Origin: Alphaproteobacteria bacterium
GTDB taxonomy: Bacteria; Pseudomonadota; Alphaproteobacteria; JANQMY01
NCBI GenBank assembly: GCA_028289425.1
Contig: JANQPL010000017.1
Coordinates: forward strand, 434,001 to 498,000
DNA: 64,000 nucleotides
Direction: 5' to 3'
The translations under genes and the position numbers were made by a program. Under the pieces are notes generated by a model. It had not been told where the DNA came from, did no database searches, and saw only the letters and a list, made by a program, of their open reading frames with translations. Shown one piece after another: positions 2,940 through 19,369 of this stretch. Within the stretch, counting starts at the first letter, position 1. Every line of letters starts with the position of its first letter.

Positions 2940-3058
2940 TTGGGTCTGAAAATGTCCCATGTTGAAACAATCAGCGGGCCTGTGCCCCTCTCATTAGACG
3001 GGTGGTGCGGCACGGCAAACTCTTCACAAATGCAAGTCATGAACGGAGCAACGTAAGT

Positions 3059-5371
3059 ATGGTTCAATTTGGAGTTGGGCAGCCTGTCCCCCGCACCGAG
3101 GACAATCGTCTGGTGATCGGGAACGGGAGCTACACGGACGACATCACGGAACCCAATCAGGCCCATGCGTATATGCTGCGCTCTCCTATGGCACATGCAA
3201 AGATCACCTCGATCGATACGTCGGATGCCAAAGCGGCGCCAGGCGTGATCGCGGTCTATACCGGCGCCGATATCGAGGCAGCGGGCATCGGACTTGTGCC
3301 GTGTCTTGTGGCGGTCCTGCCAAATCGCGACGGCAGCAAAATGCAATTGCCGCCGCGGCCGCTGCTTCAGAAAGACTTTGTGCGGTATGTGGGCGATTCC
3401 GTCGCCATGGTGGTGGCGGAAACCCCCAATCAGGCCAAAGATGCGGCTGAGTTGATCTTTGTGGACTACGAAGAACTGCCGGCCATATCGGACACGGAAG
3501 CGGCTGCGGCACCCGATGCGGTCAAGGCCTGGACCGACGGCCCTTCTAATGTCTGCTTCGATTGGGAATTCGGTGACGAAGCCAAGGCGGAAGAAGTGTT
3601 TCAATCCGCAGCTCACGTGACCAAGCTCCGGCTAGTGAACAACCGGGTTGTGGTCAATTCCATGGAGCCGCGCGCAGCGGCGGCCACCTATGATGCGGCA
3701 ACGGATCGTTACACCCTCACCCTGGGCAGCCAGGGGGTGCACCGTATGCGGCAGCAGATCTGCCAGCAGATTTTGAATATTCCGGAAGAGAAGCTCCGTG
3801 TGGTGACGAAAGACGTTGGCGGCGGCTTCGGCATGAAAGGGTTCATGTTCCCCGAATATCCGCTAGTGGTGTGGGCCGCCCAAAAAACCGGTCGTCCCGT
3901 CAAATGGACGGGGGAGCGGTCGGATGCCTTCCTGACCGACACCCAGGGGCGCGATCAAGTAACCAACGCGGAACTTGCGCTCGATGAGGGAGGCAAGATT
4001 CTGGCGGTGCGCATGGAGACCATCGCTAGTGTTGGCGCCTATGGATCGCAATTCGGTCCTGCAATCCCGACCCTTGCCGCCGTCGGCATGCATGCGGGCG
4101 TCTATAACGTTCCGGTACAGTATAATCATGTGCGTTGTGTACTGACCAACACCACACCGGTGGATGCCTATCGCGGGGCAGGGCGCCCGGAGGCGAGCTA
4201 TATTATCGAACGGCTGGTGGACACGGCGGCAAAGGAACTCGGCCTTACGCCGGATGAATTGCGTAAACGCAACTTCGTGCGGCCGGACCAGATGCCTTAT
4301 GACTCGCCGTCGGGGGTGAATTTCGACAGCGGGGAATTCGAGCGCAACCTCATCGACGCCTACCAGAAAGCCGATGTGTCGGGTTTTGATGCGCGGCAAA
4401 AACAGCGCCGGGCGCACGGTCAGCTCTCCGGCTTGGGCGTCTCCTACTATGTGGAGCGCACGGGCGGATCCAACATCGAATACGCCCAGATCGAGATCAA
4501 TCCGGATGAAACCGTCGTTGTTTGGATCGGTACCCAGTCCACGGGGCAGGGGCATGAGACGGCGTTTGCGCAAGTGGTCGCCGACAAGCTCGGCATTCCT
4601 TTTGCAAGCATCACGGTGCGCAGTGGCGATACGTCGAAGCTAGGCAAAGGCACCGGCACGGGTGGGTCGCGCTCGGCCTATCTGGGCAGCGGGGCCGCCA
4701 CGGAAGCGTCCAATGACGCCATCGAGAAAGGCAAGTCCATCGCCTCTAACGAATTGGAGGCTGCTGCCGCCGACATTGTCTATGGGGACGGTGCGTTCAG
4801 CATCGCCGGCACCGACCGATCCATCGGCTTGTTCGACGTGGCGCGCATTGCGGCAACCCAGGCCCAGGGCGACGACATTCAGGCATTGGTGGGCGATGGG
4901 GTCTATGAGCAGGAAGGCAACACCTATCCCAATGGCTGCCACATCTGCGAAGTGGTGATTGACCCCGAAACAGGTGTTACGTCCATCGACCGCTACACGG
5001 CCGTCGATGATTTCGGCACGGTGGTGAACCCCTTGTTGCTCGCCGGTCAAGTGCATGGCGGCATCGTTCAGGGGCTTGGCCAAGCCATTGGGGAGAACAC
5101 GGTCTATGACGGGTCAGGCCAGCTTTTGTCGGGCACATTCATGGACTATTGGATGCCGCGGGCCGACGATTTCCCCATATTCGATTTTTCCTACAATGAA
5201 GTTCCGTGTACGAAGAATCCATTCGGCATCAAAGGGTGTGGAGAGGCGGGCACGGTGGGTGCGCTGGGCGCCTATGTGAATGCGGTGGTCGATGCGTTAA
5301 AGGACCGCGACATCACCCATATCGACATGCCCATTACGCCGGAGAAAATTTGGAATGTACTTCATTCATAA
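3059..5371 (+). CDS. Molybdenum hydroxylase large subunit (xanthine dehydrogenase family)
   Basis: 770 residues, the molybdopterin-binding catalytic chain of the xanthine dehydrogenase / aldehyde oxidase / CO dehydrogenase family. The N-terminal domain (about 1-120) is followed by the Mo-cofactor domain with GGGFGMKGF, AYRGAGRPE, TGQGHET and the terminal GCGEAG motif, whose Glu729 is the expected catalytic base. The CoxL-specific Cys-Ser active loop is absent, so CO oxidation is unlikely and a hydroxylase acting on an aldehyde or N-heterocycle is more probable. I choose the ATG at 3059 (MVQFGVGQP) over 3002 by homology of the N-terminus. No FeS or FAD subunit gene is adjacent; an SDR follows 43 bp downstream. 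Confidence 0.88.
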   Translation: MVQFGVGQPVPRTEDNRLVIGNGSYTDDITEPNQAHAYMLRSPMAHAKITSIDTSDAKAAPGVIAVYTGADIEAAGIGLVPCLVAVLPNRDGSKMQLPPRPLLQKDFVRYVGDSVAMVVAETPNQAKDAAELIFVDYEELPAISDTEAAAAPDAVKAWTDGPSNVCFDWEFGDEAKAEEVFQSAAHVTKLRLVNNRVVVNSMEPRAAAATYDAATDRYTLTLGSQGVHRMRQQICQQILNIPEEKLRVVTKDVGGGFGMKGFMFPEYPLVVWAAQKTGRPVKWTGERSDAFLTDTQGRDQVTNAELALDEGGKILAVRMETIASVGAYGSQFGPAIPTLAAVGMHAGVYNVPVQYNHVRCVLTNTTPVDAYRGAGRPEASYIIERLVDTAAKELGLTPDELRKRNFVRPDQMPYDSPSGVNFDSGEFERNLIDAYQKADVSGFDARQKQRRAHGQLSGLGVSYYVERTGGSNIEYAQIEINPDETVVVWIGTQSTGQGHETAFAQVVADKLGIPFASITVRSGDTSKLGKGTGTGGSRSAYLGSGAATEASNDAIEKGKSIASNELEAAAADIVYGDGAFSIAGTDRSIGLFDVARIAATQAQGDDIQALVGDGVYEQEGNTYPNGCHICEVVIDPETGVTSIDRYTAVDDFGTVVNPLLLAGQVHGGIVQGLGQAIGENTVYDGSGQLLSGTFMDYWMPRADDFPIFDFSYNEVPCTKNPFGIKGCGEAGTVGALGAYVNAVVDALKDRDITHIDMPITPEKIWNVLHS

Positions 5372-6925: not shown

Positions 6926-7546
6926 ATGGAAAAGACGCTAGAGAGAAAACCCCAAGGACGCAAGGCAGAAAGCAGACGGCGGTTGCTCGATGCGGCGCGG
7001 CGGCTGTTTGTCGAACACGGCTATCACGACACGCGACCCCAGGACATCTCGAAAGAGGCGGGCGTCGGACACGGCACCTTCTACCTCCATTTTGAGGACA
7101 AGCGCGCCTGTTTCCTGGCTTTTGTCGATGAGGCGCGGGAAGAACTCAACCAGGAAGTCGATCATTATGTGGCCGATGCCACCTCGTTGGACGGCTTCAT
7201 ACGGGGCACGCTAACGGCCGTTTTTGCCTATTCCGCAAAGCATCCAGGGGTCTTGCGCGCCGCCGTCGCCGATATGGAAGTCATCGGCGGGGGCCCCGAA
7301 GCGGATCTGGAAGAGACCATCATGGATGTGTGGGGGGATGGCTGGACCGAAAGGATTATCGAAGTGGCCGCGGACGGCTTGGTCGATTCCGACTTTCATA
7401 TGCAGACGGTCGGGCATGCAATCCCCGGCCTGATCTATCAGGCCTTCCGGAATGCGGTTCGGCGCAACGTGCCCGAGGAAACGGCGATCGACACGCTGAC
7501 ACGCTTCATCGTGCGCGCCCTGCAGCCCCAACGAAACACCGACTAG
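6926..7546 (+). CDS. TetR/AcrR-family transcriptional regulator
   Basis: 206 residues. The helix-turn-helix spans about residues 10-60 (RRRLLDAARRLFVEHGYHDT, then DISKEAGVGHGTFYLHFEDK), followed by an all-helical ligand-binding domain. The start at ATG 6926 (MEKTLERKP) follows the palindrome; a start at 6779 would overlap the TPR gene and encode non-homologous sequence. It is first in a unit with the ferritin-like gene 4 bp downstream, an SDR and an LLM monooxygenase, so it probably regulates that unit in response to a hydrophobic substrate. Confidence 0.9.
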   Translation: MEKTLERKPQGRKAESRRRLLDAARRLFVEHGYHDTRPQDISKEAGVGHGTFYLHFEDKRACFLAFVDEAREELNQEVDHYVADATSLDGFIRGTLTAVFAYSAKHPGVLRAAVADMEVIGGGPEADLEETIMDVWGDGWTERIIEVAADGLVDSDFHMQTVGHAIPGLIYQAFRNAVRRNVPEETAIDTLTRFIVRALQPQRNTD

Positions 7547-7550
7547 GGAG

Positions 7551-8585
7551 ATGGCCATGGTTCAGCTCAGCTATTCACGTGAAGAATTGATGGCTGATCA
7601 CGACTATGCCCGACCACAGGAGGAAGCAGGCTACCGTCTGCATGGCGGGTTCGATGCGCAGGGACAATACATTTCGCCGCGCACGCTCCATCGCTGGCCG
7701 GCGGTAAAAGCCTGGGGCGACACGCTGAAAAGCCGGGGCTGGCCGCTGATCGATGCGGACGTAACGTTGATGTCGCGCGGAAACTATCCAACGCTTGATC
7801 AACAGAAACTCCTGCTGTCACACGATGTGGGCCAAAGCCTTTGGGACGGCATCACTATTACCGGCATTATCGAAGCGCGCGGGAAAATGTTGTGCGATTT
7901 CGAAGCGCCGGACCTTCAAGAGATCATCGTCGAAGATGTTTCTGAAATGGCGGTGGGCCATTTGAACAAGGGGCTGCTCTTTGTGCACGGGCTTGACGAA
8001 GGCGGCGACCCGGCCAGCGGTGTTGGTGCGCACGATGCCATGTGGTTTGCCGTCCGCGATCTTTTGTTTGGCAAGGACAAATATCCCATCCCCGAAGTAC
8101 CCCAGAGCCTTTCCCGCCCCGTCGAAAGCCGCGAGATGCCGCAGATCCCTGAGGCGTATGAGCAACTGCTCGTATTGCTCATGAATGTGCTGATGATCGA
8201 AGTGCGGGCGGAGAACTTTTTTAGTTTCTGTTGCGGCATTGCCCGCGACGAGGCGGCGTTCTCGGACCGGCGCAATGACGCTCTGAAAGCGGCGGAGTTG
8301 GTGGACCGTATCCGCACAGACGAAGCGATCCATGTGGCCTATCTTCAAGCGGTCATCTCGGAACTGAGAAGCCTTACTTTCAAAACTGTCGATGGAAAAA
8401 CCATCGAAGGACACCTGATCTTGGATCCCGTCTGGGATCGCATGGTGCGGTGGCATTCGGAAACCAATCACGACAATGCGCGCGGCCAAACCCGTGAAAA
8501 AATTCATCGCCTTTTGATGTCAAGAAGCGATGGCGCCGCGTTGGTATCCGAATTCGACGCATTGGAAAGGAAACTGGCGGCATAA
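7551..8585 (+). CDS. Putative ferritin-like (diiron?) protein, unknown function
   Basis: 344 residues, no family I can name. The chain is largely helical. Possible metal ligands are Glu108 (GIIEARG), Glu132 and His137 (SEMAVGH), Glu217/Glu221 (EVRAENFF) and a proper ExxH at 258-261 (DEAIH). That resembles the four-helix ligand layout of diiron ferritin-like oxygenases, but the first ExxH is not canonical. It starts 4 bp after the TetR gene with a GGGAG ribosome site and is followed after 2 bp by an SDR, then an LLM flavin monooxygenase. Context suggests an oxygenase or desaturase-like step in the same catabolic route. Confidence 0.55.
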   Translation: MAMVQLSYSREELMADHDYARPQEEAGYRLHGGFDAQGQYISPRTLHRWPAVKAWGDTLKSRGWPLIDADVTLMSRGNYPTLDQQKLLLSHDVGQSLWDGITITGIIEARGKMLCDFEAPDLQEIIVEDVSEMAVGHLNKGLLFVHGLDEGGDPASGVGAHDAMWFAVRDLLFGKDKYPIPEVPQSLSRPVESREMPQIPEAYEQLLVLLMNVLMIEVRAENFFSFCCGIARDEAAFSDRRNDALKAAELVDRIRTDEAIHVAYLQAVISELRSLTFKTVDGKTIEGHLILDPVWDRMVRWHSETNHDNARGQTREKIHRLLMSRSDGAALVSEFDALERKLAA

Positions 8586-8587
8586 AG

Positions 8588-9442
8588 ATGAAAGACTTTG
8601 CAGGAAAAACGGCATTCATCACCGGCGGCGCCAGCGGGATCGGCTATTCCATGGCGCAGGCGTTCTTGCGTGAGGGCATGAATGTGATGCTCTCCGATAT
8701 TGAGGAAGATGCGCTGGGCAAAGCCGTCGATCGCCTCGGGGCAACCAATGCTCAAGTGCGCACGGTGGTGTGCGACGTTGCCGTTCGAGAGGCAGTGAAT
8801 GAAGCGGCCGCACGTACCATCGAAGAATTCGGCAATGTTCACATCGTTTGCAATAATGCGGGCGTCGGGGCGGGCGGCCCCTTTGGGGAAATCGATCCCG
8901 CCGATTGGGACTGGACCATTGCGGTTGATCAATGGGGCGTGGTGTACGGCATCGAAGCGTTCTTGCCTCACATGAAGGCCCATGGCGAAGACGGCCATAT
9001 CATCAACACGGCGTCGATGGCGGGCATGGTGGGCTTGCCGAACATGTCGCCTTATTGCGCGGCGAAATTCGCCGTGGTGGCCATGACAGAGACGTTGCAT
9101 TCAGAACTTGCGGAAACGAATATTGGCGTGTCGGTTCTGTGCCCCGGATTCGTCCGTACACGTATTCATGAAAGCGGCCGCACGCGTCAAAGCAAATATG
9201 GCGGACCCCGCGAACGCATGTTGGAAGGTCCGGATTCGGAAGAAGGCGATGTGGCCAGTTTGGTCAATTCGGGAATCGACCCGGACGCGGTTGCCGGCCG
9301 CGTGTTGGAGTGCATTCGCGACGATGAGCTTTACATCTTTACCCATCCGGACACGTGGGAATGGCTAAGCGAACGCTTTGGGCGCATCGAAAGCGCCTTT
9401 AAAAGCGCAGCCGTCAGCCCTGCATTGCGCGGGGAAGGCTAA
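8588..9442 (+). CDS. SDR-family oxidoreductase
   Basis: 284 residues. TGGASGIG at about 13-20, NNAG, and YCAAK as the catalytic Tyr-x3-Lys. The C-terminus is longer than in FabG-like members (LYIFTHPDTWEWLSERF), a feature of the subgroup found in lipid and terpenoid catabolic clusters. It starts 2 bp after the ferritin-like gene and precedes an LLM oxidoreductase, so the four genes form one unit. Substrate unknown. Confidence 0.9.
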   Translation: MKDFAGKTAFITGGASGIGYSMAQAFLREGMNVMLSDIEEDALGKAVDRLGATNAQVRTVVCDVAVREAVNEAAARTIEEFGNVHIVCNNAGVGAGGPFGEIDPADWDWTIAVDQWGVVYGIEAFLPHMKAHGEDGHIINTASMAGMVGLPNMSPYCAAKFAVVAMTETLHSELAETNIGVSVLCPGFVRTRIHESGRTRQSKYGGPRERMLEGPDSEEGDVASLVNSGIDPDAVAGRVLECIRDDELYIFTHPDTWEWLSERFGRIESAFKSAAVSPALRGEG

Positions 9443-9479: not shown

Positions 9480-10700
9480 ATGAAGTTTGGCATCTTTTAT
9501 GAACATCAATTGCCGCGCCCCTGGAAAGACGGCGATGAGTTGAAGCTTTTTCAGGATGCGCTTGACCAAGTGGAGTTAGCGGATCGGTTGGGCATCGATT
9601 ACGCCTGGGAGGTGGAGCACCATTTTCTGGAAGAGTATTCCCATTCATCGGCCCCGGAAGTGTTTTTGGCGGCGTGCTCCCAACGCACAAAGACCATTCG
9701 CCTAGGGCACGGCATCGTGCTGATGCCGCCCAATTACAATCACCCGGCGCGGGTTGCGGAACGTATCGCCACGCTCGATTTGGTGAGTAAAGGCCGGGTG
9801 GAATGGGGGACGGGCGAATCCTCTGCGCTGCTTGAGCTTGGGGGCTACAAAGTTCCTGTCGACCAAAAACGCAGCCAATGGCGCGAAGCGGTGGAACAAT
9901 GCGCCAATATGATGGCGATGGATCCCTATCCCGGCTACGAGGGTGAACACTTTTCCATGCCATGCCGAAATGTGGTGCCCAAGCCGGTTCAAAAACCGCA
10001 TCCGCCATTGTGGGTGGCCTGCTCAAACCGGGAGACCATTAAGCTTGCCGCGCGACTGGGCATCGGTGCGCTTACATTTGCCTTTGTCGACCCGGCGGAG
10101 GCCAAGCAATGGGTCGATGATTATTATCGCATTCTAAAGGAAGAATGTGTGCCGATCGGGCATGCGATCAATCCCAATATCGCCATGGTCACCGGCTTTT
10201 CGGTTCATCCGGATGCGGACGAAGCAAAACGGCGGGGTATGGATGGATTTCGCTTCTTTGGCTATGCGCTGGGGCATCACTACATCTTCGGTGAGCACGT
10301 GCCCGGGCGCACGGATATTTGGAAAGCCTTTGAAGACGCTCGCGACGGGTTGCCCGACGAAGGCGGCAATCGCGGCATCGGCACGCCGGATCAAATGCGT
10401 ACCCATTTGCGGGGATTTGCGGAGGCCGGGGTCGACCAGGTGGCCTTCATTCAGCAAGGGGGCCGCAACAAACACGAACACATCTGCGAAGCGCTTGAAC
10501 TGTTCGCAACTGATGTGATGCCGGAGTTCAAGGAAAAAGAAGACGAGCGGCAGGCCGCGAAAATGGAGGCGCTTGCGCCTTATCTTGAACAGGCGATGGA
10601 ACGCAAGGACAAGATGCCCGCATTGGCGGATGACGAAATTCCGACGGTGGTGGCACTGGGGCGTCAGATTGCGGAAACGTCCAAGTCCGCGGCGGAATAA
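9480..10700 (+). CDS. LLM-class flavin-dependent monooxygenase
   Basis: 406 residues, bacterial luciferase-like TIM barrel. The N-terminus MKFGIFYEHQLPRPW, the segment RLGHGIVLMPPNYNHPARVAERIATLD and GRVEWGTGES are diagnostic of the LLM superfamily (FMN or F420 dependent). The start at 9480 follows GGAAGGGC; the longer frame from 9378 overlaps the SDR. Members hydroxylate or cleave hydrocarbons, ketones or sulfonates using reduced flavin from a partner. No flavin reductase is adjacent. It ends exactly where the convergent cyclase gene ends (10700/10701). Confidence 0.88.
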   Translation: MKFGIFYEHQLPRPWKDGDELKLFQDALDQVELADRLGIDYAWEVEHHFLEEYSHSSAPEVFLAACSQRTKTIRLGHGIVLMPPNYNHPARVAERIATLDLVSKGRVEWGTGESSALLELGGYKVPVDQKRSQWREAVEQCANMMAMDPYPGYEGEHFSMPCRNVVPKPVQKPHPPLWVACSNRETIKLAARLGIGALTFAFVDPAEAKQWVDDYYRILKEECVPIGHAINPNIAMVTGFSVHPDADEAKRRGMDGFRFFGYALGHHYIFGEHVPGRTDIWKAFEDARDGLPDEGGNRGIGTPDQMRTHLRGFAEAGVDQVAFIQQGGRNKHEHICEALELFATDVMPEFKEKEDERQAAKMEALAPYLEQAMERKDKMPALADDEIPTVVALGRQIAETSKSAAE

Positions 10701-12695
10701 TCACTTGCCCTTGAGCAGGATGGTTGTGCCGGTTTCGCCATTTTGGAGGCGATCCAGGTGGAACTGGGCAAGGTGATCGCCAGGGCGTTGTTGCAGGATT
10801 TCACGGAACGCTTGTTTGGCGGTCGCGGGATCGCCGTCAAGCGTTGCATAGGCGGATAGGTAAAGATCCGTATCTTGATCATTTGGTGACGGTTCATAGG
10901 CGGCGATCGGTTCGCTTTTGCCGGCCAGAATAAGTTTCCCCACCGGCCTCAGGCGATGGCTTGTCGGCGGCAATGGGCCATCCGAACCGATCAGAATTCT
11001 AGAGTTGGTGAACTTGTTGGCGCTTTCCAGACGCGACGCCGTGTTTACGGTATCGCCGAGCGCTGTGTAGTCGAAGCGGTCACGGCCGCCGAAATTACCC
11101 ACCACCGCCGGACCGCAATAAACACCGATGCGCGTTTCGCCGACGTCAAATCCCTGTGCGGACCATTTCTCGGCAAACGTATCGCTGAAGCGGTCGATTT
11201 CAATGGCGCAGGTCACCGCCCGGTCGAAATCATCGTCATGCGGTTCGGGCGCGCCAAAAAAACTCATGGTGCCGTCGCCAAGGAACTTATCGATGGTCCC
11301 GCCATTCCGGAGCACCGTACTGGCGACCCCTTCCAAATAGTCATTGATGATTTCAGCCAGGAGTTTCGCATCCAACCCTTCGCTGAACGACGTAAACCCC
11401 GCCAGGTCGGTGAACAAGACGGTGAGCTGACGCCGTTCGCCGCCCAGTTGAAGGCGTGACGGATCTTGGTCCAGCCGCGAGACAATTCCCGGCGGCACAT
11501 ACCGCGCAAAGGCGCCGCGAATAAACGCGCGTTTCTCGCGTTCACGGCGGCCATCGAATACGCTTGTCAGGGAAATGGCGGCCACCAGCGCCAGCACCGG
11601 CATGAACACCGGATAGAGCGGGCCGCCGTACCGGTAGATGAAAAAACTGCAGGTCCAGAACAGGATAACAATGAGCGCGCCGATCACCACTTTGGCGGCC
11701 ATGGGCGCGCGCACCAGCGCGATGACCACGCCTAAGATACCGGCGAGCAAACCGATGACGAAATTCGTCGGGACGCTTGTCACCCACAAGGCGCGCCCAT
11801 TCAAGAGCTGCGCCAGCGCATGGGCATGGATCTCGATACCCGCCATGCGCTCTCTCCAGTTCGACAAATTGAACGGCGTTCGGTGACGGTCGATGTCAAC
11901 GAGATCAACACCAATCAGAACCACCTTGCCGTCGATCCATTCCGGTGTTGCGAGATCGATCCAATGGGCCGGATACTGTTTGAATGGTTTTTCGCCTTTG
12001 ACGGTTTTGCCCCACCACGCGATGGGCGCAACGCTTTTGTCGAACTCGACGCCAAGGGCGTGGGCAATGGCTGCGGGAAATTGGAATGGATACGGGCTAT
12101 CGGGATCCCAAACCGGTTTTTGCCGGCGCGCGGTTCTGTCGAATGTGTCGAGAAACGCAACGCCGTGACCCGCGGGATTGTCGCCGACAAATCTCTGGAG
12201 TTTGCCGAGGCGTTTCTTTTTGTCACGCGAGGACTCTGTCTTGTCGCCCGAGATCGCGCCGACATCGAAGGTGTTGTCCGACCAGATCGGGATGATCGGC
12301 GCGCGTGACTCCTCGAACGCTTTGATCAGCAAATTGTCTTTTTCCGGCTCTGTTTCGCTGTCCAACAATAAATCGATGCCGATCGCGCGTGCCCCCAGTT
12401 GGTCGAGACGATTGATAAGGTTGGCCATGAAGGCGCGGTCGATGGGAAAATGGTAGGGCAGCGCGTCCAGCGTCGCGTCGGTGATTGCGACAATGACGAT
12501 ATCCTCATTCTGAGGTTCGGCCGGTGTCGCCAATGCGATGCGGATGTCCCGCCCCCACATTTCCAGGGCATGGGTGAAGGCGAGGCCAGACGGCAGCGCG
12601 CTCGAAATCAGGCCGCTCAGCAGAATAATACCGCCGAGCCACGCAACATCTCGGCGTGTGCGAATGCGCAGCGCCTGTAGGATTTGGGCCACCAT
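10701..12695 (-). CDS. CHASE2-domain adenylate/guanylate cyclase
   Basis: 664 residues from ATG 12695. An N-terminal membrane helix (about 20-40, WLGGIILLSGLISS) leads to an extracytoplasmic CHASE2 sensor domain (MWGRDIRIALATPAEPQNEDIVIVAITD cut to its key start MWGRD and IVIVAITD), then two or three membrane helices (about 340-410), then a class III cyclase domain with FTDLAGFTSFSEG and GDGTMSFFGAP. Both metal-binding Asp positions are present. A short helical extension with TPR character follows (YLSAYATLDGDPATAKQAF). It is divergent from a FecR-like secreted protein, a recurrent pairing. It presumably converts an envelope signal into cAMP or cGMP. Confidence 0.9.
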   Translation of the reverse strand: MVAQILQALRIRTRRDVAWLGGIILLSGLISSALPSGLAFTHALEMWGRDIRIALATPAEPQNEDIVIVAITDATLDALPYHFPIDRAFMANLINRLDQLGARAIGIDLLLDSETEPEKDNLLIKAFEESRAPIIPIWSDNTFDVGAISGDKTESSRDKKKRLGKLQRFVGDNPAGHGVAFLDTFDRTARRQKPVWDPDSPYPFQFPAAIAHALGVEFDKSVAPIAWWGKTVKGEKPFKQYPAHWIDLATPEWIDGKVVLIGVDLVDIDRHRTPFNLSNWRERMAGIEIHAHALAQLLNGRALWVTSVPTNFVIGLLAGILGVVIALVRAPMAAKVVIGALIVILFWTCSFFIYRYGGPLYPVFMPVLALVAAISLTSVFDGRREREKRAFIRGAFARYVPPGIVSRLDQDPSRLQLGGERRQLTVLFTDLAGFTSFSEGLDAKLLAEIINDYLEGVASTVLRNGGTIDKFLGDGTMSFFGAPEPHDDDFDRAVTCAIEIDRFSDTFAEKWSAQGFDVGETRIGVYCGPAVVGNFGGRDRFDYTALGDTVNTASRLESANKFTNSRILIGSDGPLPPTSHRLRPVGKLILAGKSEPIAAYEPSPNDQDTDLYLSAYATLDGDPATAKQAFREILQQRPGDHLAQFHLDRLQNGETGTTILLKGK

Positions 12696-12839
12696 GGGCC
12701 TACCATGGCGGCGATTTGCGCCAGTGCCAAGGTGCCAGAGGTGACGCCGTTCACAACGCCCGTTGAGGCGCTGTCCAATTCGACCTAAAGTCAGATATTG
12801 CGGGATCCCGATCAGGACATAACGCAAAAGGGGGCGGGG

Positions 12840-13598
12840 ATGCGTATCTGGCAATTTTCAAGGGCCACCGTGGCTGCCTTGGCGTTGGCCATAATCGCCA
12901 TTTTACTTCCGGTTCAGGCGTATGCCGATTCCATGGTTGTGGTTGAAACGAACGTTCGGTCGCTACGCGAAGGAACGTCCTTGAACCGCCGGCACGAGTT
13001 TGAATTGCGGGATGGTCAATATGTGGTCCTATTGACCGAATCCGGCAGCATCCTTGAGATAGAAGGCCCGTTTGCTGGGCGAATCGAAACTGACGGTAAA
13101 AGAGCAAATCCGTCTGTGCTCGAAGAGCTGGAAGATATGGTCTTGCGGACCGAAAGGGGCGTTGGCGACCCGGCCGGTAAGAGAGGGCCCAGCTTCTATG
13201 ATTGGCTCTTCTGGAGCCGGCACGAAGATCTTCGCACCACAGTGGAAGTTTTGATGGGGGGCACCTGGTGCGTTATTGAGGATCCGCCGCCGGAACTGTT
13301 TCGGCGGGTGTACTTCGGACCGCCTGCAAAAGTGCATTTGAGGGATCTACAAACCGGTGATGAGGGCACGACGAGCTGGGGCCTCATCGGCACCCGTGCC
13401 ATTTGGCCGAAGGAGCTACCCATATATGACGGGGCGACCTATGAGATTCGCGTCGACGATGGGGATCCTGTGAGGTTTACGTTGCGGTTGGCACCGAACG
13501 GCGACACGACGGCCCCAGAGCAACTCAATTGGATGGCGGAAGTGGGCTGCGACGAACAGGTCCAATACGCCATCGGCGAAATCCGGGATCGGATTTAG
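12840..13598 (+). CDS. Secreted FecR-like domain protein
   Basis: 252 residues. Signal peptide about 1-31 (ATVAALALAIIAILLPVQAYA). Residues 32-85 (VVVETNVRSLREG, HEFELRDGQYVVLLTESG, EIEGPFAG) match the FecR-type pattern G-x-x-L-x-x-G ... G-x-x-x-x-L-x-GP. The rest is unclassified. It is divergent from the CHASE2 cyclase, with starts 145 bp apart, and may be the periplasmic ligand or modulator of CHASE2. I prefer the ATG at 12840 because it begins the signal peptide directly. Confidence 0.6.
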   Translation: MRIWQFSRATVAALALAIIAILLPVQAYADSMVVVETNVRSLREGTSLNRRHEFELRDGQYVVLLTESGSILEIEGPFAGRIETDGKRANPSVLEELEDMVLRTERGVGDPAGKRGPSFYDWLFWSRHEDLRTTVEVLMGGTWCVIEDPPPELFRRVYFGPPAKVHLRDLQTGDEGTTSWGLIGTRAIWPKELPIYDGATYEIRVDDGDPVRFTLRLAPNGDTTAPEQLNWMAEVGCDEQVQYAIGEIRDRI

Positions 13599-13962: not shown

Positions 13963-14232
13963 TTGCAAACAAATCACACGTATAGATTTTGTGACGGTTT
14001 GGGCGTTGTGCTCCGTTGACCGGGATTCCGAACCTGCCTACGGTCGGCTCAGAGTTGAGATCCGAACGGCTGGGTTTTTCTAAGTTGTTTCAGTGACAAG
14101 ACCGAACGGGGAGCGATTCCGCGAACGCTCGGCGTGTGTCCGGACCTCAGGGGATGCGGGGCTCGCAGCTTACATAACGCGGGCACTTTCAACTTAAGTG
14201 GTCAGGGCAAAGCCCGGCCGGGAGGACAATTA

Positions 14233-16602
14233 ATGAAAAAGGGTAGTTTTCGGTCAGTCTTGATGGGCTCGGCAGCATTCGCCATCGGCACGGTCGGCGC
14301 GGCGGAATTGGCGCAGGCGCAACTTGATGAGATCGTGGTCACCGCGACAAAACGTGAGCGTTCGCTGCAGGACGTTCCCGTTTCAATTTCTGCCTTCAGT
14401 GCAGAGGCACTCGAGCTGGCAGGTGTCACGAACATCGACAGCCTTCAAACAAGTGTTCCCGGTTTTTCTGTTCAAACCGCTCAATCTTCCGGCCAGAACA
14501 CGTCCCTTCGCCTACGCGGTGTTGGTACCACGGGTAACAATCTGGGTTTTGAAGGCGCGGTTGGTATCTTTATCGACGGTGTCTACAGATCCCGGGCGGG
14601 CGCATCCTTGGGCGACTTCCCGGATGTGGAGCGGATCGAGATCTTGCGCGGCCCGCAAGGCACACTCTTTGGTAAAAATACAACCGCCGGCGCGGTGAGC
14701 ATCATCACCAAGAAGCCGAAAATGGACGAGTACGAAGCGGAGCTTCAGGCGACCTTCGGTAACTTTGATCGCCAGCAGGTGCGTGGCGTCGTGAATTTTC
14801 CCATTTTGGATGGCGTTCTGGCCGGCCGCATCTCGGCCGACTACAGCCGGCGGGATGGATACAGTGTCGATATCCTCGATGCGACAGACGACATCAACGA
14901 CCGGGACCGCTACAATATCCGGGGTCAATTGCTTTGGACGCCAACGCCCGACATCGAAGTGCGGGTGATTGGTAACTACTTCGCGGCTAACGAGTCTTGC
15001 TGCGGACCGACACAATTCTCCGACGACGGTCTGTTGGTCGCCGGCGCCAATGCTGGCGCGTTTGCGCCGCTCATTCCGGGGCCGGTTGCAAACCCGGCCA
15101 GCACCCGGAACGGCAACTTCTCCTCAAGCGATTTTCCGGTATCGGAGCGTCAAGAAGACCGAAACGGTCAGATTGACGTGACGTGGGATTTTGCTGAGAA
15201 CATCTCGTTCTTTAATTCGATCTCATACCAACGCTATGACATCGGCGGAACGAACGATGTGGATTTCACGCGCTTCGATTTCTTCAACGTGCCGTTCTCC
15301 GCTCAGCAGGTTGAGCTGTTTACGAACGAGTTTCGTTTCAATGGCCAATTGAATGACCTGCCGTTGGTTCAGTCCGTCAACTGGCTGTTCGGCGGTTACT
15401 ATTCCAGTGAAAATCTGGGTACTCAGGCGAACCTGACTTTTGGGAATGACGCAGCCGTGATCGGCCCGCTGATTGCGGGTGCGTTCAATGTGGGCGCCAT
15501 TCCGCCGGGCACGTTCGCGATCGCGCCGGGCGATTCTCAGTACGAGATATTCACCCAAAACGGCAAAACGCGGGCCCTGTTTGGCCATTTGGATATCGAC
15601 CTTCTCGAATGGTTGAACCTCTCGGGTGGTGCGCGTTACACCACCGAAGACAAAGAAGGTGGCGCGGTCTTTACGACTGTAAACAGCGCCGGCATTAATC
15701 CTTTCATTACAGCCGGTGCCCGTCCGTTTGATGCCACTGGTGATGCGGACGAGTGGATCGGCACGGTTGCGGTGACGGTCAACTTCACGCCAGACATCAG
15801 CGTCTACACAAGTTTTGCCCACGGATATAAGTCCGGCGGTTTGAACTTTGACCAGCTGGGCGGTCAGGCCGGCTTTTTGCCCGGATCGGGGCCTGCGCTG
15901 TTGGCTTTTGCCGGCGGTAATCCCTCAGCCCTTACCTTGGGCACGTTTGATGATCCTACGTTCCCAGTGGAAACCAACAACACTTATGAAGTTGGTGTGA
16001 AATCGAGCTTCTGGGACAATCGGGGAACATTCAACATTACCGGCTTTCATTCCGTCTTCAGCAACTTCCAGATCCTCGCGTTTACCGGCGTCAGCTTCTC
16101 GATCTTGAGCGCGCCGGAAGCGACAACCACCGGATTTGAGACGGAACTGCAACTCTCGCCAATCGAAGGGTTGAATATCGGGGCCGCATACACTTATGCC
16201 GATGCCGAATACAGCGCGCCGGTTTCCTTGCCGACAGGCGAGCAGCTCGGCGATAGCAGGTTGACGAATGCGCCGCTGCACAGTGGTTCGGTTCGCGCAA
16301 CCTATAGGCAGCCGATCCCGAACACAGGACTGGTTGGTCTCATCCACGGTGAGTGGGCGTACAACAGCCGCACCAATACCTCCACCGCCATTCCTGCGGA
16401 TCGGGAACAAAACGGCTACTCGCTGTTCAACGCGCGGGTCGGTGTGAACACGGACGACGATCGCTACGGCTTCCAGCTTTGGTGCCGGAACTGCGGCGAC
16501 GAGCAATACCGAAACATTGTTTTTGCGGGCCTTGTGGGCGGCGACTTCGCTTACATCACGCCGCCTCGGGAATGGGGAGTGACACTCTCGGCGAAATATT
16601 AA
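14233..16602 (+). CDS. TonB-dependent outer-membrane receptor (copy 1)
   Basis: 789 residues. Signal peptide about 1-29 ending AQAQ, then a TonB-box-like LDEIVVTATKRERS. The plug domain (about 40-150) shows VPVSISAFSAEALELAG, SLRLRGVGTTG, GVYRSRAG and ERIEILRGPQGTLFGKNTTAG; the remainder is a 22-strand barrel ending in VTLSAKY with the terminal aromatic residue. A Cys pair WCRNCGDEQYRN occurs near the end. The start at 14233 has GGGAGGA upstream. The family imports siderophores, vitamins, glycans or lipophilic substrates; no ligand can be assigned. A close paralogue follows. Confidence 0.92.
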   Translation: MKKGSFRSVLMGSAAFAIGTVGAAELAQAQLDEIVVTATKRERSLQDVPVSISAFSAEALELAGVTNIDSLQTSVPGFSVQTAQSSGQNTSLRLRGVGTTGNNLGFEGAVGIFIDGVYRSRAGASLGDFPDVERIEILRGPQGTLFGKNTTAGAVSIITKKPKMDEYEAELQATFGNFDRQQVRGVVNFPILDGVLAGRISADYSRRDGYSVDILDATDDINDRDRYNIRGQLLWTPTPDIEVRVIGNYFAANESCCGPTQFSDDGLLVAGANAGAFAPLIPGPVANPASTRNGNFSSSDFPVSERQEDRNGQIDVTWDFAENISFFNSISYQRYDIGGTNDVDFTRFDFFNVPFSAQQVELFTNEFRFNGQLNDLPLVQSVNWLFGGYYSSENLGTQANLTFGNDAAVIGPLIAGAFNVGAIPPGTFAIAPGDSQYEIFTQNGKTRALFGHLDIDLLEWLNLSGGARYTTEDKEGGAVFTTVNSAGINPFITAGARPFDATGDADEWIGTVAVTVNFTPDISVYTSFAHGYKSGGLNFDQLGGQAGFLPGSGPALLAFAGGNPSALTLGTFDDPTFPVETNNTYEVGVKSSFWDNRGTFNITGFHSVFSNFQILAFTGVSFSILSAPEATTTGFETELQLSPIEGLNIGAAYTYADAEYSAPVSLPTGEQLGDSRLTNAPLHSGSVRATYRQPIPNTGLVGLIHGEWAYNSRTNTSTAIPADREQNGYSLFNARVGVNTDDDRYGFQLWCRNCGDEQYRNIVFAGLVGGDFAYITPPREWGVTLSAKY

Positions 16603-16616
16603 GGATTGATTCGGTG

Positions 16617-16648
16617 TGTGACCGGGGTCCTAACGGCCCCCGGTCACA
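16617..16648 (+). terminator. Strong hairpin after first TonB receptor, no T-tract
   Basis: Arms TGTGACCGGGG (16617-16627) and CCCCGGTCACA (16638-16648) form an 11-bp stem with a 10-base loop, 15 bp after the stop. No run of T follows, so it may be a Rho-type end, an mRNA stabiliser or an attenuator between the tandem receptor genes. Confidence 0.45.
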
Positions 16649-16761
16649 GTCCGCCGGATAACAGGGGCAAAGTGGTCACGAAAGCGCGACCACTGCCTCA
16701 GAAAAGCGTGAAATAGAGCGGCAAATCAGGCGATTTGGCCGCCTTTTGAGGTGTTGTAAAA

Positions 16762-16818
16762 TGACAACGGTGTGACAGCGAGTTGTCAAATCCCTCTTTG
16801 CGCTTATTGACCTGACAA
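16762..16818. promoter_or_regulatory. Cluster of TGACAA half-sites upstream of second TonB receptor
   Basis: TGACAA at 16762-16767, its complement TTGTCA at 16783-16788, and another TGACAA at 16813-16818. The sites match the halves of the palindrome at 6870-6882 before a TetR gene, but the spacing differs (15 bp instead of 1). The 418-bp gap 16603-17020 contains no gene. A ribosome site GGGAGGA precedes the ATG at 17021. Confidence 0.3.
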
Positions 16819-17020
16819 GTTCTCATCTCGTACCGTCTTTCCAGGATCAAAGCCTATCAATTGGGCAATTTCTGCATCTAGAATGATCAAAAAGGCTGGG
16901 GTGTCTAAAAGTCCTAGCAGATGCAGCCCGGATAGGGGGGCGATCTCGATATCGTAAACAGGCAGCCTGGTCAGCTGCCCTTTCGAGTGGCCTTGGCTTC
17001 GCCGGGTCGGGAGGACAAAA

Positions 17021-19369
17021 ATGATTAAATTTAATTTGCGGTCGGCCTTGCTAGGCACGGCAGCAATTGTTGTTGGTACCGTTGGCGCCGCCGAAATGGC
17101 CCAAGCCCAACTCGACGAGATCGTCGTTACGGCCACGAAGCGTGAACGGTCGCTTCAAGACGTTCCGATTTCGGTTTCCGCGTTCAGTGCGGAAGCTCTG
17201 GAACTTTCCGGTGTTACCAATATCGACAGTCTGCAGACGTCGGTTCCTGGTTTGGCCATCCAAACCGCCCAATCTTCGGGTCAGAACACATCGATCCGGC
17301 TGCGCGGTGTGGGGACGACCGGCAACAACCTAGGTTTCGAGGGTGCGGTCGGTATCTTTATCGATGGTGTCTATCGGTCGCGTGCTGGTGCATCCCTGGG
17401 TGACTTCCCGGATGTAGAGCGGATTGAGATCTTGCGCGGCCCGCAAGGCACTCTGTTCGGTAAAAACACGACCGCTGGTGCGATCAGCATCATCACCAAG
17501 AAACCGAAGATGGATGAGTGGGAAGCCGAGCTTCGGGCAGGTTTCGGGAATTTTGATTCCCAGACGGTTCGCGGCCTTGTGAACTTCCCCATCGTTGACG
17601 GCAAACTGGCCGGGCGTGTTTCGGCGGACTACAGCCGTCGAGACGGATTTGGTGTTGACGTCAACGATACGACCGATGACATCAACGATCGCGACCGTTA
17701 CAACATTCGCGGGTCCTTGCTGTGGACACCGACACCGGACATCGAAGTCCGGGTCATCGGTAACTATTTTGCAGCCAATGAAAGTTGCTGCGGTGCTGTC
17801 CCGTTCACTGACCAGAATGCCATTGTGGCGATCGCCAATGCCGGTGGTTTCCCGACGATTGCAGGTCCGATTGCCGGTTCTGCGAGCACGCGGAACGGCA
17901 ACTTCTCCACAAACGACTTCCCGGTTTCCGAACGTCAAGAAGACCGTAGTGGTCAGATTGATGTGACCTGGGATTTCGCTGAAAACATTTCGTTCTTTAA
18001 CTCCATTTCGTACCAGCGTTTCGATTTGGGTGGCACGAACGACGTGGACTTTACCGGCATCAATTTCTTCAACGTGCCATTTGCCGCGCAGCAAGTGGAA
18101 TTGTTCACGGAAGAATTCCGATTCAGCGGTGAATTGGCTGACTTGCCGTTGGTCCAGTCCGTGAACTGGTTGTTTGGCGGTTATTACTCTAGCGAGAACC
18201 TTGGCACGCAGGCCAATTTGACCTTTGGTCCGGATGCCGATGCGACCAGTGCCTTGCTAGGTGGCCTGTCTATTGGTGAAGCCATTTGTGCGGCTTTCGC
18301 ACCTCTGCCATGTAACATCGAACCTGGTGACTCCCAGTTCGAAACGTTCACGCAGAATGGTAGAACGAGAGCATTGTTCGGTCACTTGGACATCGACCTG
18401 ACATCTTGGTTGAACGTTTCTGGTGGTGCGCGCTTCACCACGGAGGACAAGGAAGGTGGTGCCGTATTCACGACCTTGAACAATGGACCTGGTGTCAATC
18501 CCTTCATCTCCGCGGGAGCACGGCCTTTTGAAACCGATGCTGACTCTGATGAATGGATCTACACGGGTGCGCTAACCGTCAAATTTACCGAGGACATTAG
18601 CGTTTACGGCAGTTATGCTCACGGCTACAAGTCCGGTGGCATCAACTTTGACCAGCTAGGTGGTCAAGCCGGCTTCTTCCCGGGTTCCATCTTAGGTGGA
18701 GCGGGTGGCACAGTTGGTGATCCAACGTTTACGGAAGAACTCAACAACACCTACGAGGTGGGTCTGAAGTCAACGTTCTGGGACAACCGAGCGAGCTTGA
18801 ACGTTACCGGCTTCCATTCAGTATTTAAAAACTTCCAGGTTTTGTCGTTCACCGGCGTGAGCTTCACGATCGTCCAAGCACCTGAGGCAACGACGACGGG
18901 TATCGAAGGTGAATTGCAAATCAACCCATTTGAGGGCCTGAACGTTGGAATGGCCTATACTTACGCTGACGCTGAGTATAGTGCGCCATTCGTGCTGGAC
19001 GGAAATATCTTGGGTGACAGCCGTCTAACAAATGCCCCGCTGCATAGTTCGTCGATCCGGGCAACCTATACGCATCCGATCCCGAATACTGGATTGGTTG
19101 GCCTGTTGCACGGTGAATGGGCTTACAACTCTCGGACTAACACATCAACGGCATTGCCGCCGGATCGTGAGCAAAATGGTTACTCATTGTTCAACGGCCG
19201 GATTGGTGTGACCACGGATGATGATCGCTACAGCGTTCAGCTCTGGTGCCGGAACTGTGGTGACGAGCAGTATCGCAACGTCATATTCGCGGCACTGTTG
19301 GGTGGTGGTGATTTCACCTTCATCACGCCGCCGCGGGAATGGGGTGTAACACTCTCTGCGAAGTACTAA
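17021..19369 (+). CDS. TonB-dependent outer-membrane receptor (copy 2)
   Basis: 782 residues, paralogue of the gene at 14233. Signal peptide about 1-29 and the TonB-box-like LDEIVVTATKRERS are the same. The plug is nearly identical (for example GVYRSRAGASLGDFPDVER), while the barrel differs in loops around residues 265-290, 405-450 and 560-575. The same WCRNCGDEQYRN pair and SAKY end are kept. Codon choice differs from copy 1, with many more GGT and TTG codons, which may reflect higher expression or separate history. An intrinsic terminator follows at 19393. Confidence 0.92.
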   Translation: MIKFNLRSALLGTAAIVVGTVGAAEMAQAQLDEIVVTATKRERSLQDVPISVSAFSAEALELSGVTNIDSLQTSVPGLAIQTAQSSGQNTSIRLRGVGTTGNNLGFEGAVGIFIDGVYRSRAGASLGDFPDVERIEILRGPQGTLFGKNTTAGAISIITKKPKMDEWEAELRAGFGNFDSQTVRGLVNFPIVDGKLAGRVSADYSRRDGFGVDVNDTTDDINDRDRYNIRGSLLWTPTPDIEVRVIGNYFAANESCCGAVPFTDQNAIVAIANAGGFPTIAGPIAGSASTRNGNFSTNDFPVSERQEDRSGQIDVTWDFAENISFFNSISYQRFDLGGTNDVDFTGINFFNVPFAAQQVELFTEEFRFSGELADLPLVQSVNWLFGGYYSSENLGTQANLTFGPDADATSALLGGLSIGEAICAAFAPLPCNIEPGDSQFETFTQNGRTRALFGHLDIDLTSWLNVSGGARFTTEDKEGGAVFTTLNNGPGVNPFISAGARPFETDADSDEWIYTGALTVKFTEDISVYGSYAHGYKSGGINFDQLGGQAGFFPGSILGGAGGTVGDPTFTEELNNTYEVGLKSTFWDNRASLNVTGFHSVFKNFQVLSFTGVSFTIVQAPEATTTGIEGELQINPFEGLNVGMAYTYADAEYSAPFVLDGNILGDSRLTNAPLHSSSIRATYTHPIPNTGLVGLLHGEWAYNSRTNTSTALPPDREQNGYSLFNGRIGVTTDDDRYSVQLWCRNCGDEQYRNVIFAALLGGGDFTFITPPREWGVTLSAKY

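Follow-up and report, generated by a model that had tools for sequence, protein, structure and literature searches.

In ferritin-like diiron proteins, each of two helix pairs supplies a Glu or Asp together with an ExxH motif, which PMC9531940 gives as the ligand pattern of the class. For most haem-oxygenase-like dimetal oxidases (HDOs), three His and three carboxylates from three core helices are described in PMC13108848. Among flavin enzymes, proteins of the luciferase-like superfamily, to which diketocamphane monooxygenase with its need for a separate FMN reductase belongs, include type II Baeyer-Villiger enzymes (PMC4631483).

The window studied here, which is the whole stretch of 64,000 nucleotides of alphaproteobacterial DNA that was analysed, holds an open reading frame that is a real gene and belongs to a conserved family (Table 1). 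Its product, which we call the ferritin-like protein (FLP), appears to represent a family of its own, as yet without a name, within the ferritin-like dimetal superfamily; its motif is unusual, and it is accompanied by a conserved flavin enzyme, a luciferase-like monooxygenase (LLM). FLP is probably an uncharacterised O2-activating metal enzyme of the ferritin-like kind. The family, the fold class of its predicted models, its conserved residues and the gene pairing were observed directly. Dimetal oxygenases perform hard oxidations, and this family has neither a curated model nor, according to our searches, a known function; given its conserved flavin partner, its regulator and the occurrence of FLP-LLM pairs in named strains, the substrate can be sought directly.

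Table 1. Features of the FLP locus in the window.
Feature	Positions	Strand	Basis
TetR-family regulator	6926..7546	+	PF00440, E 9e-17; same strand upstream in 36/77 near loci
FLP gene, ferritin-like dimetal-type protein	7551..8585	+	ORF call, AlphaFold2 model, structural matches
E108 codon, proposed metal ligand, helix 1	7872..7874	+	invariant 93/93, helix moments
E150 codon (after invariant D149), proposed ligand, end of helix 142-151	7998..8000	+	invariant 93/93, spacing
Residues 152-160, hairpin-like loop, variable length in family	8004..8030	+	DSSP of two models, spacing
H161 codon, proposed ligand, start of helix 161-173	8031..8033	+	invariant 93/93
E217 codon, proposed ligand, helix 3	8199..8201	+	invariant 93/93, conserved and hydrophobic face
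E258-A-I-H261 codons, ExxH motif, helix 4	8322..8333	+	invariant 93/93
Short-chain dehydrogenase SDR2 (PF00106)	8588..9442	+	directly downstream in 30/77 near loci
Luciferase-like monooxygenase LLM (PF00296)	9480..10700	+	E 3e-50

Family and predicted fold

The gene encodes 344 residues with an ExxH at 258-261 (E258-A-I-H261), as a sequence-only reading of the window had it, and the translation bears out the identities which that reading gave for residues 108, 132, 137, 217 and 221. A second ATG at 7557 matches the starts of homologues better than the one at 7551, and GGGAG lies six bases ahead of it, at a better spacing than for 7551; judged from these sequence features, the true start may be 7557 and the true length 342 residues. 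Numbering is counted from 7551 throughout. FLP is present in a single copy in the window's genome.

Pfam gave nothing credible for the window FLP (best E 0.2) and NCBIfam no match, and when 56 near and 37 distant members of the family were scanned, each matching Pfam family was confined to a single protein (best E 0.019). A sequence search of the PDB returned no match at E <= 1, and profile searches of the PDB non-significant matches only, the best of them a designed diiron protein and bacterioferritin, with unrelated proteins (syntaxin, MntH) as well. A pattern-based scan of a genome collection found 77 FLP loci (the near set), hosted, by organism name, by Alphaproteobacteria (Parvibaculum, Tepidicaulis, Rhodobiaceae, Caulobacteraceae and others), SAR86 and other Gammaproteobacteria, a few Deltaproteobacteria, Acidimicrobiia and one member of the Bryobacterales; a plasmid collection held no FLP match and viral contigs no relative. 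FLP is sparsely distributed, occurring in 5 of 41 genomes of one sample, the window's own included. When the best five candidates at most were scored per genome, it was found in one of 398 genomes of the phylum sample, namely the window's own, and in one of 396 from the phylum of the Bryobacterales genome, namely the genome on which that sample was centred; with up to eight candidates scored, it was found in 39 of 247 genomes belonging to the same class as G434, the Acidimicrobiaceae genome that carries locus L066; this class is presumably Acidimicrobiia. In 34 of these 39 genomes FLP is of the distant type only, 27-35% identical to the window protein. Genome G836 has six copies, some in tandem, and G1047 has eight matches, mostly in short pieces (C5, C12) that resemble decayed copies.

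The AlphaFold2 model of the window FLP, built on a 56-row alignment, has a pLDDT of 95.5 and a pTM of 0.92, and that of a distant relative (33% identical) a pLDDT of 89.9. Helices at 95-116, at 135-151 with 161-173, at 201-231 and at 238-274 form two helix-turn-helix pairs packed as a helical bundle, the arrangement of the ferritin-like superfamily in these predicted models and in VIA-align comparisons; the four-helix bundle on which the sequence-only reading had staked its proposal is thus part of the predicted fold. Foldseek found no match to the window model in the PDB at E <= 0.001 (the first row, a receptor, has E 0.71). In VIA-align, which took its rows from candidates that Foldseek itself had supplied, 49 of the top 50 solved matches fall into ferritin-like families, R2 among them, or into dimetal families of the haem-oxygenase-like kind, the lone exception being PqqC (Z 10.9). 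The top match is 8fhc, with aldehyde-deformylating activity (Z 13.4, rmsd 3.2, 200 residues aligned), a structure for which our literature search found no paper naming it, followed among others by MiaE (12.7), R2 (11.8), CADD and UndA (11.5), R2lox (11.3) and HrmI (11.2); one R2 row, 8bt4, is of a class not known to carry metal. The relative matches the toluene 4-monooxygenase hydroxylase (13.0), the aldehyde-deformylating protein 5ux1 (12.8), the sMMO hydroxylase (12.5) and R2lox (12.5); its list also contains 3bjd, titled otherwise than these dimetal families. By chain length (301-324, 387-392), 16 of its best 50 rows, the top one included, are beta subunits of toluene or methane monooxygenase hydroxylases, which are not known to bind metal. 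Helical bundles can reach Z scores of 11-13 from their common arrangement without kinship. We nevertheless judge the fold class persuasive because two models of proteins that are only one third identical draw matches from the same superfamilies, and the predicted models very probably belong to the ferritin-like/dimetal superfamily. The "new subgroup" of diiron-type enzymes that had been suggested holds up in so far as FLP has no Pfam or NCBIfam model and its predicted structure matches dimetal families.

When compared to ferritin-like diiron oxygenases (8fhc, 5ux1, MiaE, toluene/methane monooxygenase hydroxylases), the predicted FLP bundle aligns over 183-236 residues and likewise has a Glu plus ExxH in its second half, but identity is 5-14% in the rows shown, there is no Pfam match, and FLP differs by an extra N-terminal region and a first ExxH that is apparently split by a hairpin. 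The MiaE family (PF06175) and the Pfam family of aldehyde-deformylating oxygenases are matched by neither the window FLP nor the 56 near and 37 distant members, so that the likeness to the latter is structural only; the window's genome has no MiaE match. Profile comparison by hhalign found no kinship to MiaE (E 0.07, without aligned ligands) or to the HDO family, the latter a weak negative with an HDO profile of just 56 columns. R2 and R2lox align over most of FLP (up to 1-343, Z 10.6-12.5), yet have no significant sequence match and a different ligand spacing, and no reductase gene was found among the neighbours scanned. HDOs (UndA, CADD, HrmI) align with the FLP models at Z 11.0-12.4, whereas the invariant residues of FLP, as read from the sequences, seem to fit a site of four Glu and two His better.

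Conserved residues and a candidate dimetal site

Conservation was followed in 93 homologue rows, which correspond to 92 genes as L167 and L076 are one gene; L167 was kept in the 93-row conservation counts and dropped from those of invariant positions, spacing and helix moments. The near alignment (A1) holds 56 of 78 possible rows (the window plus 77 loci), 22 loci having been excluded for frameshift, X, readthrough, truncation, unsure start or redundancy. Twenty-seven positions are invariant in the 92 genes and 11 of them are Asp, Glu or His (H31, E108, H137, D149, E150, H161, E217, D257, E258, H261 and E271; hypergeometric P = 0.006), while Glu and His alone account for nine (P = 0.001), both values being descriptive only for such related sequences. 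The N-terminal part contributes invariant H31-G-G, R48, W55 and Q84. E108, H137, D149, E150, H161, E217, E258 and H261 are also unchanged in all 93 rows and H146 is His in 88, E132 is Glu in just 25, and E221 is Glu in 54 and Phe in 26 of the 37 distant rows.

Helix moments of conservation and hydrophobicity, computed without the candidate residues, put E217 (20 and -11 degrees from the respective moments), E258 (8 and 25) and E108 (18 and 66) on the conserved face, which for E217 is the hydrophobic one as well, and H261 at -52 and -35; E221 also faces the core (60 and 29). H137 points away from this face (-102 and -130), and H161 lies at -72 and 45 degrees. On helix 142-151, E150 is 63 and 51 degrees off the two moments and on the whole helix 135-151 it is 118 and 90 degrees off, the conservation angle of H146 being 23 and 78 degrees on these two spans. 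E108 and E150 are separated by 41 residues in 87 of 92 genes (42 positions apart), versus roughly 30 positions at the comparable spacing of known diiron proteins, where H137 would fall. Between E217 and E258 there are 40 residues in 54 genes and 36 in 36 of the 92. Two residues invariably separate E258 from H261 (92/92), while 8-13 separate E150 from H161. In the relative's model a short hairpin of two strands (DSSP EE--EE) lies between the equivalents of the latter two, E148 and H157, and should bring them together; the bridges of the window model (153, 158-159) are less regular.

From these sequence patterns we propose E108, E150, H161, E217, E258 and H261 as the candidate ligand set. The second helix pair carries the Glu plus ExxH arrangement, as E217 and E258xxH261 are invariant with moments within 52 degrees, and the FLP profile places this motif on the helix of bacterioferritin that carries its ExxH, though without significance (E 0.14). 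In the first pair, E108, E150 and H161 are just as invariant, yet 8-13 residues intervene between E150 and H161. The first ExxH would thus be split by the hairpin, D-E-A/G-(hairpin)-G/A-H paralleling D-E-A-I-H; if this is true, diiron proteins can accommodate an insertion within their core motif. The ligand of the second helix is the least sure, because the angles of E150 and H161 depend on the helix span or fall off the face, and H146 or D149 could serve in place of E150 or H161. Taken together, sequences and models make the presence of a dimetal site in FLP likely. The ligands named in the sequence-only reading survive in part: E108, E217 and E258xxH261 stand, whereas E132 and E221 are rejected as poorly conserved and H137, although invariant, as lying 102-130 degrees off on the wrong helix face, and the invariant D149, E150 and H161 were absent from that list. 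That one helix pair repeats the other within the protein was also considered but is unsupported, since the hhalign score between the two halves (10.3) is lower than the ten highest scores among 60 shuffled controls (12.2-20.2).

Gene neighbourhood and the luciferase-like partner

In the window, the genes for TetR, FLP, SDR2 and LLM follow each other on one strand with intergenic gaps of 4, 2 and 37 nt, which agrees with the earlier description of a protein placed between its regulator and two redox enzymes. The LLM scores 171.7 bits against PF00296 (cut-off 27.9). Its closest solved structure is 7bip (E 2.6e-26), followed by an alkanal monooxygenase alpha chain; 7bip is named in a paper on rishirilide (PMC8093152). 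By its PF00296 match, LLM is closest among known systems to type II Baeyer-Villiger monooxygenases and bacterial luciferase. The named PDB relatives of SDR2 include C alpha-dehydrogenases, which turn a secondary alcohol into a ketone.

Regulators and redox enzymes also stand beside FLP in relatives, LLM being the most striking case. Neighbouring genes, called with a simple custom script, include an LLM no more than 2.5 kb downstream of FLP in 20 of the 77 near loci, without an SDR2 in between in 10 of them; LLM is absent from 57 of the 77, some of which are incomplete, and where more than 3 kb of downstream sequence exists it is present in 17 of 60 and absent from 43. The 35 distant-branch loci comprise 34 from G434's class and L167 (Bryobacterales), which lies outside it. 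LLM directly follows FLP in 22 of these 34 loci (19 of 30 when the multi-copy genome G836 is excluded), and is not next to FLP in the other 12, nor in L167. The distant partners are 53-59% identical to the window LLM in 19 pairs, 70-73% in two loci of G836 and 39% in a third one, and the partner in L136 scores 169.8 bits against PF00296. A stop/start overlap of 4 nt is found in 10 of 19 measured FLP-LLM pairs, the other nine having gaps of 1-12 nt by aligned start; three of the 22 pairs (L135, L140, L148) were excluded from this count, with gaps of about 50-290 nt. Outside the ten overlaps, L137 has GTGAAGTTC at the same place, but its alignment begins later.

By organism names, the pairing spans two phyla, and it is present in Parvibaculum sedimenti HXT-9, P. 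indicum DSM 25305 and Tepidicaulis marinus MA2. The loci are not independent, since neighbours are inherited together. A quick tree was built from 53 LLMs, including 10 that do not neighbour an FLP; in it, the FLP-adjacent LLMs of each set need two label changes. Among 20 genomes with FLP but no LLM in the FLP locus, 12 have no LLM at E <= 1e-40 anywhere, which speaks against a strict pair. The pairing in relatives points to a shared oxidation pathway. Among the titles and opening lines of abstracts listed by literature searches, which covered mostly papers outside subscription, none describes the FLP family or the FLP-LLM pairing.

Several other genes lie around FLP. Upstream in the window (3002-5371) is a molybdopterin-binding xanthine-dehydrogenase-like gene, then another SDR; this molybdopterin-binding type occurs within 6 kb upstream of FLP in 25 of 77 near loci. 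In L020 a YaaA-type peroxide-stress gene (L020:4361-5134), of a cluster seen in 8 near loci, sits between the molybdenum enzyme and TetR. A SAR86 locus has a two-domain gene of the glyoxalase/dioxygenase superfamily after FLP (L045:7035-7877) plus an MFS transporter, each cluster occurring in 8 loci, and another type of PF00296 gene lies just upstream of FLP in L145 (2633-3523), with cluster members in L159 and L166. On the far side of the window's LLM, a gene for a CHASE2 and adenylate/guanylate cyclase protein is convergent with it (10701-12854, minus strand), and two consecutive TonB-dependent receptor genes lie at 14134-19369. In the Acidimicrobiia loci L066, L067 and L070 an Ada-AlkA-type gene is upstream of a near-type FLP, together with an O6-methylguanine methyltransferase gene in L067, and L059 has an AidB-like neighbour; a link to alkylation repair was set aside, as the other neighbourhoods scanned gave no sign of it.

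Proposed route and alternatives

The fold, the conserved residues and the flavin-monooxygenase partner lead us to infer a dimetal enzyme that activates O2 as part of a short oxidative pathway, with metal binding, O2 activation, substrate class and reaction order all part of that proposal. FLP would bind two metal ions (Fe/Fe or Mn/Fe), most likely through the six candidate ligands, activate O2 and oxidise a small organic substrate, which TetR would presumably sense, and its product would pass to LLM and, in the window, to the SDR as well. We hold O2-dependent substrate oxidation by FLP to be fairly probable, and lean, if only slightly, towards the fuller explanation of an O2-activating dimetal FLP whose product is handled by a dedicated LLM (and by the SDR in the window). 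The oxygenase role that had been called plausible stays so, given the ferritin-like matches of the predicted models and the recurrence of redox neighbours.

FLP might otherwise be a dimetal peroxidase, catalase or peroxide sink, in the style of rubrerythrin or Mn-catalase, that protects LLM and makes no product. Such scavengers belong to the same superfamily, the FLP gene is closely coupled to that of a flavin monooxygenase and LLM can leak hydrogen peroxide, one of the 56 near members weakly matches Mn_catalase (E 0.019), and the YaaA-type family recurs in 8 near loci, the L020 copy being just upstream of TetR. We consider this role unlikely, as the invariant N-terminal H31-G-G, R48, W55 and Q84 have no obvious use in a scavenger, FLP stands without a close LLM in 12 of 20 genomes checked, and rubrerythrins are smaller than FLP. 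Hardly more credible is a single complex of FLP and LLM in which FLP, with a degenerate or mononuclear site, is a structural or regulatory subunit: overlaps of 4 nt and gaps of a few bases are typical of proteins made in a fixed ratio, and the relative's 16 beta-subunit matches among its best 50 fit as well, but ligands invariant in 93 of 93 rows are unexpected for a degenerate site, SDR2 separates FLP from LLM in the window, and FLP occurs without LLM. A helical protein devoid of a redox metal site, for instance of a cofactorless, PqqC-like kind with the haem-oxygenase-like fold, is the least probable of these alternatives; the lack of a significant Foldseek match and PqqC among the aligned chains (Z 10.9) speak for it, and against it stands the unchanging pattern of Glu and His residues, of which E258 and H261 sit on the conserved face.

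For the O2-activating FLP with its LLM partner, the order of reactions that we favour is a guess: FLP would hydroxylate, the SDR would turn the alcohol into a ketone and LLM would insert oxygen in a Baeyer-Villiger reaction. It is suggested by the resemblance of the SDR to C alpha-dehydrogenases, by the type II Baeyer-Villiger enzymes among LLM proteins and by a neighbour in L076, and resembles camphor breakdown, in which a P450, a dehydrogenase and diketocamphane monooxygenase act in this order; we regard the order of hydroxylase, dehydrogenase and Baeyer-Villiger enzyme as possible, though rather doubtful. With similar reserve, one may imagine a hitherto undescribed oxidation module found across phyla, in which a hairpin-split dimetal oxygenase and an LLM are made together and act on the same substrate, in sequence or as a complex, FLP hydroxylating and LLM inserting oxygen beside the resulting ketone.

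The cofactor of LLM is probably FMN. The F420 synthesis gene cofD (TIGR01819) was found in 4 of 8 genomes, the window's included, but no cofD match was found in Parvibaculum sedimenti, which holds the FLP-LLM pair, and FMN is therefore likelier family-wide, a dependence of LLM on F420 not being held across the family.

In L076, a distant relative from the Bryobacterales, the gene after FLP encodes a clear Baeyer-Villiger monooxygenase of type I (E 7e-187 to OTEMO) that carries FKGEAYHTARWP, which we take to be the type I Baeyer-Villiger fingerprint, as though an enzyme of one Baeyer-Villiger type had taken the place of the other (LLM). This is only suggestive, as such neighbours are limited to three genes' loci, L076, L150, where a more distant Baeyer-Villiger relative is next to TetR, and L075, with fragments of a Baeyer-Villiger gene near FLP; none was found in the window or in the other loci searched. 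Elsewhere in the genome that holds the window, a Baeyer-Villiger enzyme has 17 matches at E <= 1e-20, of which four reach 46-51% identity.
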